This document shows positions 20,397 through 41,101 of a stretch of 42,957 bases of DNA, in pieces; positions within the stretch are counted from its first letter, which is position 1; the number at the start of each line of letters is the position of its first letter. The stretch comes from an uncultured Lachnospiraceae bacterium. Its GTDB lineage: Bacteria; Bacillota; Clostridia; Lachnospirales; Lachnospiraceae. The stretch lies in NCBI GenBank assembly GCA_945609985.1, contig CALYZQ010000010.1, positions 1-42,957 on the forward strand. The letters are read 5' to 3'. A program made the translations under genes and the position numbers. The notes under the pieces were generated by a model, which saw nothing but the letters and a program-made list of their open reading frames with translations, did no database searches and was not told where the DNA came from.

Positions 20397-20605
20397 TTTT
20401 TACGTCTGGTGGCAGGAGATGCGGGGGGGGAGGGGACCATGGTAGCCGCAGGCACGCTTTCGCTATGCTTCGCATCGCAACGGTACTAAGCTCGCTTAAT
20501 TGCATCTTCCGACGCAATTACCTCGCTAAGGACCGGCGTGCTCAGAATGCGCTGCTTGTACCATGGTCCCCTCCACCCCACTCCTCCTGCCCCCGAACGT
20601 AAAAA
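20397..20605 (+). repeat. Element A: conserved core inside long imperfect inverted-repeat arms
   Basis: Left arm TTTTTACGT...GGCAGGAG...AGGGGACCATGGTA matches the reverse complement of the right arm; internal core 20447-20557 shared with element B. Confidence 0.85.
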
Positions 20606-20770: not shown

Positions 20771-21844
20771 ATGGAAATTAACTTAAAGGAAAAATTGCGC
20801 ACATTGCGACAACAACGAAACATAACCCAGGAAGCTCTTGCAAAGCATCTTGGAATTACTCCGCAATCCGTAGGGAAATGGGAACGGGGAGAAGGCTACC
20901 CGGATATTACGTTGTTGCCTAAAATAGCTTTTTATTTTAATGTAACTGTTGATGAATTACTCAGTGTAGATCAGATAAGAGTTGAAGAAACAATATGCGA
21001 ATATCTAAGACAAAGTGAGATTTTTCAACAAAATGGAGAAAATCAAAAAAATCTGGAAATGTGGGAAAAGGCATATGCTGAATTTCCAAATGATTGCCGT
21101 GTAATCGAAGGACTTATGTTTGCAATCAACAGAGAGGCCGTATATCCATGTCCCCAAGATAAAGCAACACTTATCATTACGCTCGGCGAAGAACTTTTGC
21201 AAAAATCAACTGAGCCCCGACAAAGAGAACGAGTCATACAACGCTTGAGTTACACTTATGCTAATATCGATAAAGAAAAAGCATTATACTATGCTGACAT
21301 GAGTGGTACGTTTTTCATAACAAGAGAAAATCTTCGGAGTGCCATTCTTGATGGAGAAGAAGGTGTAGGCGCATGTCAAAGTTACATAATGAATTTAATC
21401 CATGAGGCCGCATTAACTGCGTGCAATATGACTTCAAAAGTTCCATTTACGCATGAGGAAATCATTGAAGCATATACTTTTGCAATTGATATCCTCCGGC
21501 GGCTGTTTTCAGATGACAATGTGGGCTTTTACGCTTTTGATCTTTCATTTTATTATAGTCGTATTGCACTCGAGTATGCCGATATGAAAGATACAGCGCA
21601 TACACTAAAAGCACTGGAAGAAAGCTGCAGATATGCAATCATTGAAGCCAACTTAAAGGATATGGATTATACAGCCCCGATGGTTAATCTCATAAAGCAT
21701 ATAAATGAAGGAACCTCGAAAAACTATAAAGGTAATGCTTGTAATCTCAGATTGCAAGCATCGGAAGACAAACGATTTGATTTTGTACGGAATGAGGAAG
21801 TATTTAAAAGACTTGTTGCCGAGCTCAAAGAGCATGTAGAATAG
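20771..21844 (+). CDS. XRE-family HTH transcriptional regulator with C-terminal helical (TPR-like) region
   Basis: 357 aa; LRTLRQQRNITQEALAKHLGITPQSVGKWERGEGYPDITLLPKIAFYFNVTVDELL. Confidence 0.92.
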   Translation: MEINLKEKLRTLRQQRNITQEALAKHLGITPQSVGKWERGEGYPDITLLPKIAFYFNVTVDELLSVDQIRVEETICEYLRQSEIFQQNGENQKNLEMWEKAYAEFPNDCRVIEGLMFAINREAVYPCPQDKATLIITLGEELLQKSTEPRQRERVIQRLSYTYANIDKEKALYYADMSGTFFITRENLRSAILDGEEGVGACQSYIMNLIHEAALTACNMTSKVPFTHEEIIEAYTFAIDILRRLFSDDNVGFYAFDLSFYYSRIALEYADMKDTAHTLKALEESCRYAIIEANLKDMDYTAPMVNLIKHINEGTSKNYKGNACNLRLQASEDKRFDFVRNEEVFKRLVAELKEHVE

Positions 21845-39644: not shown

Positions 39645-39673
39645 AGTGCCTGCAGATTCCCGCAGGCACTTTT
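39645..39673 (+). terminator. Terminator of the 4Fe-4S protein gene
   Basis: Perfect 9-bp stem AGTGCCTGC/GCAGGCACT followed by TTT. Confidence 0.85.
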
Positions 39674-39886
39674 AGTTTGGGCGGGCAGCATGGGCAGGCA
39701 AGGGTAGGTGTTTGTTATAAGCAGTGCACTGTGAGCACGCCGGCCCTTAGCGAGGTAAAGGCGATAAATCGCCTTGCGGTTTTCGTCTTCGAGCTTAGTG
39801 CCGCTGCGCTGCGAACCGTAGCGAAAGCGTGCCTGCGATAACAAATACCTGCCCTAAGCCGCCCATGCTGCCCGCCCAAACTAAAA
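39670..39886 (-). repeat. Element B: second copy of the conserved-core hairpin element
   Basis: Arms TTTTAGTTTGGGCGGGCAGCATGGGC at both ends in inverted orientation; core is the reverse complement of the core in element A. Confidence 0.85.
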
Positions 39887-39922: not shown

Positions 39923-41101
39923 TTATTTCCAAAACTTCTTTTTCTTCCCATCCTTGGAATCCTTCGGTTCCTTGGGTTCTTCGTCGTTCTCGTCCATTTT
40001 CTTGGTAGCATTTAAGGAATCGCCTGTGAGGGCATCAAACTGCTTAAGCAGCTCCTTGGCCTCATGGCTCAGCTTGTCGGGCACCTGTACCACTAAGGTT
40101 ACATAGTGGTCACCGCGCACATCCTTATTTCTCCAGGAAGGCACACCCTTGCCCTTCAGACGCACCTTGGTATCGGTCTGAGTACCGGGCTTCACGTCAT
40201 AAATGACCTTACCATCTACGGTATCGATAAAGATTTCTCCGCCCAATGCCGCTACCGCATAGGATACGGGCACAGTAGAAAATATGTTAAACTCCTGACG
40301 CTGGAAAATGGGATGACGGCCCACAATCACCTCTACCAGTACATCGCCTCTGGGGCCACCGTTGGTGCCGGGCTCTCCGAGACCGGGCATTCTGGTAGAC
40401 TGTCCGTTGTCAATACCTGCGGGAATATCCACAGAATAACGCTTTCTCATGGAGATATAGCCTGTTCCGTGACAGTCCGCACACTTTTCCTTAATCACCT
40501 TACCGCTTCCCTGACAATCCGGACAGGTCTGCACATTGCGGACTGTTCCGAAGAAGGACTGCTGAGTATATACCACCTGACCCTTGCCACCACATTTGGT
40601 ACAGGTCTCGGGTGTTGTGCCGGGCTTTGCACCTGAACCGTTACAGGTCTTACAGTTTTCCTTTACAGTAAGCTCAATTTCCTTCTTGCAGCCAAACACT
40701 GCCTCCTCAAAGGTAATGCGGACACTGGTACGAAGGTTGGCACCCTTCATGGGGCCATTGTTTCTGGCACTGCTTCTGCGACCACCGCCGAAGAAATCTC
40801 CGAAAATGTCTCCAAATATATCTCCAAAATCAGCACCGCTGAAATCAAAGCCTCCTGCACCGCCTGCTCCGCCTTCAAAAGCAGCATGACCGAATTGATC
40901 ATACTGACGCTTCTTCTCAGGGTCACTTAACACTGCATAAGCCTCTGAAGCTTCCTTAAACTTTTTCTCTGCCTCAGCATTACCGGGATTTGCATCCGGA
41001 TGATACTTCTTAGCCAAAACACGATATGCTTTTTTGATTGCAGCTTCGTCTGCATTTTTGTCTACGCCAAGGACCTCGTAGTAGTCTCGCTTTTCAGCCA
41101 T
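39923..41101 (-). CDS. dnaJ: Chaperone protein DnaJ
   Basis: 392 aa; J-domain with HPD, G-rich linker, four CXXCXGXG zinc motifs. Confidence 0.98.

Follow-up and report, generated by a model that had tools for sequence, protein, structure and literature searches.

BOX elements of Streptococcus pneumoniae (PMC3049150) resemble the element described here in many respects. They are dispersed intergenic repeats of less than about 200 bp with an alignment-predicted fold and a variable middle module; as in our case, they are over-represented between convergent genes and have spread in the past, insertion now being slow or absent. BOX elements consist of boxA-boxB-boxC modules and are co-transcribed with operons; our element shares with them the conserved predicted fold. 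Going by the BOX description, it is set apart by its presence in another bacterial family, by palindromic arms which keep pairing but not sequence, by terminal repeats and target duplications in relatives and by frequent inversion.

MITEs (PMC10969869) are also short, non-coding, intergenic and highly base-paired, and their terminal repeats and target duplications have counterparts in relatives of our genome. However, in the element studied here the centre is conserved across genera while the ends change, the core has strand-specific covariation, the copies of the window carry no detectable ends or duplications and no matching transposase is known. REP, BIME and REPIN elements are likewise intergenic palindromes with structured single strands which form convergent close pairs. 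An associated RAYT gene is characteristic of REP/REPIN repeats. REPs are 20-40 bp long and have GTAG or CGTC tags (PMC3733652), whereas our core covers 110 bp, has no GTAG/CGTC tag at its ends and is accompanied by 8-bp duplications in relatives. ERIC and Correia (NEMIS) repeats are similar in being imperfect palindromic MITE-like intergenic repeats (background in part from PMC3049150). As described, they differ from our element in having unrelated hosts. We know of no covariation-supported core with drifting arms in ERIC or Correia repeats.

The window, a 42,957-nucleotide stretch of DNA from an uncultured Lachnospiraceae bacterium, includes two copies of the element in opposite orientations. 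Re-reading of the sequence found both copies exactly where the first-pass annotation had placed them, and the core matches which it gave for the pair, 43 of 48 and 26 of 27 nt, are exact as written. The copies, their parts and the neighbouring genes are as follows.

20397-20605, plus strand: copy A, whole (from the sequence)
20397-20446, plus strand: copy A, 5' arm, G-rich, with its outer end in a T-run (from the sequence and from fold pairing with 20557-20605)
20447-20556, plus strand: copy A, conserved core, the sense strand being the plus strand (from BLAST matches, covariance model R1 and pair counts)
20455-20465, plus strand: copy A, conserved bulge on the 5' side, CGCTTTCGCTA (consensus CGCTYYCGCT), which the model leaves unpaired (invariant columns in alignment A1)
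20472-20486, plus strand: copy A, 5' strand of helix P2, pairing with 20530-20541 (helix 4, 96% of cells paired)
20486-20494, plus strand: copy A, 5' side of the conserved terminal motif, CTAAGCTCG (invariant in A1; R.Y and Y.R covariation with the 3' side)
20495-20519, plus strand: copy A, variable apical hairpin, subfamily-specific and absent from most relatives
20520-20530, plus strand: copy A, 3' side of the conserved terminal motif, ACCTCGCTAAG (A1)
20530-20541, plus strand: copy A, 3' strand of helix P2 (A3 pair counts)
20557-20605, plus strand: copy A, 3' arm, C-rich (from the sequence, arm comparison and fold)
20771-21844, plus strand: HTH regulator gene to the right of copy A (Pfam HTH_3, open reading frames)
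39670-39886, minus strand: copy B, whole (from the sequence)
39838-39886, minus strand: copy B, 5' arm (from the sequence and fold)
39720-39837, minus strand: copy B, core, the sense strand being the minus strand, with a longer apical hairpin (from the sequence, BLAST and fold)
39670-39719, minus strand: copy B, 3' arm (from the sequence and fold)
39923-41101, minus strand: dnaJ, just upstream of copy B (Pfam DnaJ/DnaJ_C)

Copy A is flanked by divergent reading frames, the right-hand one coding for the HTH regulator, and copy B is located downstream of dnaJ. Both are predicted to fold as long imperfect hairpins when treated as RNA (-110.8 kcal/mol, z = -9.2 for copy A and -121.1 kcal/mol, z = -11.3 for copy B).

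Copy number and host range

BLAST with the 110-base core of copy A has found 40 matches in the window's own 2.48-Mb genome (G000), including copy B, with E-values from 3e-52 to 9e-10, a likeness far above what chance would give. The element is 110-200 bases long, and its host, a gut or rumen bacterium, carries about 40 copies. It is non-coding, as its ~200 bp include no conserved open reading frame.

Covariance model R1, built from 28 copies, gave matches in 100 out of 138 congeneric genomes and in 121 of 299 genomes sampled across Lachnospiraceae. In wider samples the element was found in 28 of 296 genomes of the order and 4 of 300 genomes of the phylum; every positive genome belonged to Lachnospiraceae, and neither sample gave an R1 match outside this family. 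The number of matches per genome varied from 0 to 118. An exact motif scan returned Clostridium symbiosum, Hungatella hathewayi, Butyrivibrio, Faecalicatena, Dorea and Acetatifactor, host names which also point to Lachnospiraceae. Viral contigs gave no exact motif matches, and no BLAST match was obtained in plasmids or phages.

No Rfam family was assigned at the gathering score to the element of the window or to 19 loci of relatives. Low, permissive thresholds gave no credible match either; the mir-like Rfam matches were rejected as artefacts of long hairpins. Subscription papers and unnamed candidate lists (e.g., PMC8040213) aside, no description of the element was found in the literature searched. 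The repeats thus form, as proposed earlier, an unannotated family in which the core is conserved and the arms are specific to each copy: many further copies exist and no Rfam family includes them. The element is a previously unannotated repeat family restricted to Lachnospiraceae, present in more than 100 genomes of this family with up to ~118 matches in each and showing very clear covariation, yet lacking an Rfam family. Recurrent gene families beside the copies were confined to common superfamilies. In genomes with few copies the neighbours of the element were ordinary and no partner gene recurred.

Fold of the core and the strand that is kept

Inside the arms lies a basal helix GCAGGCA/TGCNCTGC. 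Further in, an 11-nt conserved bulge CGCTYYCGCTA is present on the 5' side only and is followed by a short helix, by helix P2 ending with CGGYAC/GTRCCG and by the terminal stem CTAAGCTCG...ACCTCGCTAAG. In most species a short loop closes this stem, while in G000 it is closed by the extra apical hairpin.

The fold was evaluated in two alignments. In A1, made with MAFFT only, 79% of cells are paired compared to 27-40% in slid versions, and two-sided changes occur in 22 of 32 pairs. In A3, compiled from named genomes, 91% of cells are paired, 32 of 37 pairs have two-sided changes, and there are 514 doubly changed cells against 73-110 in slid controls. As A3 was aligned by R1 it leans to the R1 structure, but A1 gives the same answer. 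The terminal stem covaries as well: TAGGCTCG goes with CTCGCCAAG.

G-U pairs outnumber A-C pairs in helix P2 (35 vs 9; 32 T.G vs 1 C.A in one pair), and therefore the sense strand is the one being kept. From this excess and from covariation it is evident that folding is maintained in the sense strand of the core and not in the complementary one. By contrast, no strand bias exists in the arms of G000 and of its close relative G056 (81 G-U vs 93 A-C). The first-pass annotation had listed a structured ncRNA with an outer helix selected only for pairing among its explanations. Taken as a structured nucleic acid of this type, the element is largely upheld by covariation; since the arms are devoid of strand bias, however, template switching on DNA, and not selection on RNA, may be what maintains their pairing. 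Conservation of unpaired loops and tolerance of G-U pairs make RNA somewhat more likely than single-stranded DNA as the state in which the putative folded strand acts.

Two kinds of core variants were noted. A ~33-nt insert CCGTTTTAATCCGAAGGATTTAAACATGTTCTA interrupts the core at one shared point, in the 3' strand of P2, in several genomes (L130, L223, L234, L239). The usual apical motif can also be replaced by a variant apex such as ACATAAGGYGCT...AGCRCCTAAGT or ACTAACGCACC...GGTGCGTAAGT (second copies of L031, L080, L108 and L149; L276-L278, L289).

Arm drift, inversion and core exchange

Among 32 copies in the window's genome, a left arm has 83% identity to the reverse complement of its own right arm but only 54% to the left arms of other copies (shuffled baseline 44%), whereas the cores of different copies are 87% identical. 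The arms drift while staying complementary and the cores stay alike, so the MITE pattern of conserved ends and free interior fails in this genome. The description of the element as the reverse of a MITE, given in the first-pass annotation, is appropriate for the window's genome but not for relatives, which carry MITE-like versions. The arms are indeed inverted repeats within each copy, although imperfect (67-98%) and not near-perfect as was initially claimed. They do differ between copies but are not wholly unrelated, as the inner ~14 nt belong to a few types (GGATACCATGACA, GGTATCTGTTAT).

Orthologous copies were compared between G000 and G056, with about 1 Mb of the latter covered. Orthologous cores are on average 95% identical and orthologous arms 84%. 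Changes matched in the opposite arm number 14, compared to 105 confined to one arm, so that over this evolutionary distance the arms have co-evolved in part only; in the long term co-evolution is seen as the 83% pairing within copies compared to 54% between them. In one orthologous element (L042 vs L366), one of the species has extended arms on both sides with new complementarity between them, similar to a paired insertion.

The core has the same orientation at six of 12 orthologous filled sites and is inverted relative to the flanks at the other six, i.e., at about half of them. In the L036/L362 pair, the asymmetries of the inner arms next to the core have been exchanged between the arms along with the core flip while the outer bases have not, which places the crossover inside the arms.

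Cores are also exchanged at orthologous sites. At L043/L093 the 5' arm is identical and only a few bases distinguish the 3' arms, yet the core with its apical hairpin is of another subfamily. At L051, L025 and L030 the core of the ortholog is less similar than many paralogs (ranks 20, 27 and 10 of 32). Overall, cores are swapped at four of 11 loci with the flanks still orthologous. At the other seven of ten loci the ortholog is the best core match. As most cores (7/10) track orthology, gene conversion explains just a part of core likeness, and constraint may be its main cause. A different replacement was seen at L337 (G056 C47) compared to L038: the arms and the basal core are kept, and an unrelated two-hairpin sequence takes the place of the apical part.

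Pairing of the arms and core inversion would arise from polymerase template switching or from recombination between the two arms, and core exchange from ectopic gene conversion. Template switching was reported to homogenise the arms of inverted repeats and to invert spacers (PMC8604942) and was argued in another report to create and maintain RNA hairpins (PMC8794818). Dozens of loci of this family constitute a natural experiment on arm co-evolution, spacer inversion and exchange of the centre, processes usually seen one case at a time.

Mobile unit and possible origin of the family

Outer ends of the element were spotted by eye in relatives and then tested by pattern search. The 14-mer GTAACAGTTCAGCC occurs 101, 23 and 10 times in three of them (G012, G420, G451), with no matches to the reversed control pattern. 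Inverted pairs of GTAACAGTTCAGCC about 180-235 bp apart enclose the arms and the core, and exact 8-bp duplications are found at six sites: CGAAGATG, CCCATTCT, CCTATGGC, AACAAGCC, GATAAGAT and CTATCATT. These are complete ~200-bp MITE-like elements with terminal inverted repeats and target duplications; therefore the mobile unit includes the arms, and in relatives it moves as a whole, with ends, arms and core. Butyrivibrio-type copies carry a second type of outer repeat, TAGGTAATTGCGAAACT. As the outer repeats differ among members, the same core resides inside elements with different ends.

Ends starting with GTAA and an 8-bp duplication are hallmarks of IS66. The ends in relatives also start with GTAA and the duplications have the same length, but IS66 transposase is absent from all five genomes examined (G000, G056, G012, G420, G451). 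No transposase with matching ends was found, the IS66 type being the one tested. A 1.84-kb terminal-repeat pair in G420 was considered as an autonomous element and rejected, since it represents two MITEs around ordinary host genes.

The copies in the window's genome are old. No single common terminal repeat or motif was found for them, and direct repeats of at least 6 bp, searched for as target duplications, flank 2% of copies in the window's lineage vs 4% in the control. At L023/L104 a clean site lacks the whole element, arms included, directly after the T-run of a terminator and without a duplication; insertion and precise loss are indistinguishable here. Three sites in G056 (L098, L316, L304) are reduced by deletions whose ends lie asymmetrically inside an arm or the core, and none of the sites compared has two intact arms but no core. 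Where the element is missing, the adjacent terminator belonging to the opposite gene appears to be missing too (L098 8985 vs L044; L052 vs L307). In G000 and G056, most copies are flanked by convergent genes or adjoin co-directional ones; other genomes show every gene arrangement, and in codirectional contexts the two core orientations are almost equally common (21 vs 20).

Taken as a whole, with its conjectural steps, the most probable explanation is that the element is a non-autonomous MITE-type repeat restricted to Lachnospiraceae, with a conserved folded core, of a kind comparable to BOX; by analogy, it may function like a BOX element or another MITE. The sense strand would act as a folded single strand serving the upkeep of the element itself and not the host. 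Random orientation relative to genes points in this direction and counts against a cis-regulator selected by the host, while independence of the core from the terminal repeats counts against a transposase end. A multi-copy structured non-coding RNA gene, with transcribed copies, the core as a functional domain and the arms as an outer helix selected only for pairing, would account for the very strong covariation, the strand-specific wobble pairs with conserved unpaired loops and the conservation of the core across many genera. We nevertheless consider it unlikely, as the arms show no G-U strand bias, the core is inverted in half of the orthologs, its orientation has no preference relative to genes, genomes carry anything from 0 to 118 copies, and terminal repeats with target duplications are present in relatives. 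It is improbable that the element is of the single-stranded DNA type (REP/REPIN or IS200/IS605-like), with a HUH-type transposase acting on its folded strand: the strand-specific fold with bulges and the convergent arrangement of nearly all close pairs, as in REP pairs, are in agreement with this possibility, but the terminal repeats and 8-bp duplications of relatives fit a DDE-type transposase, and no partner gene recurs beside the copies. The evidence speaks neither for nor against the hairpin-replicating ssDNA element which the first-pass annotation had listed as well.

According to another suggestion of the first-pass annotation, the core is mobile and inserts at the apex of palindromes or terminators, in which case the arms would be host sequence. 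Such an origin could explain why cores are alike and arms differ between copies and why a hairpin with a T-run adjoins 17% of element ends in the window's lineage vs 2% of random positions. However, the clean empty site lacks the arms, reduced sites never retain two whole arms, and in relatives the arms and the core move together, so this suggestion is not supported and we regard it as very improbable. Least probable of all is an invertible regulatory DNA switch with a site-specific recombinase acting at the arms. It would agree with the inversion of six out of 12 orthologous copies, but arms of different copies have no recombination site in common, most copies have convergent or co-directional genes as neighbours, and no promoter-like site overlaps copy A or was found around copy B.

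The reading of the element as a MITE-type repeat raises the question of why a non-autonomous element keeps a strand-specific fold which its terminal repeats do not need. We speculate, and rather doubtfully, that the folded strand could be recognised by a dedicated factor copying the core to other sites by homing-like conversion or via an RNA or single-stranded DNA intermediate, so that the core would be passed family-wide between elements with different terminal repeats. If so, the conserved part of a selfish element would be an internal strand-specific fold and not its ends.

Close pairs of the element (less than ~600 bp apart) are nearly always convergent, with the sense 3' ends facing each other: about 23 are convergent, two are tandem and none is divergent. 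Examples are L034, L142, L164, L182, L195, L202 and the G199 pair C18:59557/59900 with 12 similar ones. Two different elements together make up a ~590-bp composite which is itself repeated 13 times in G199.
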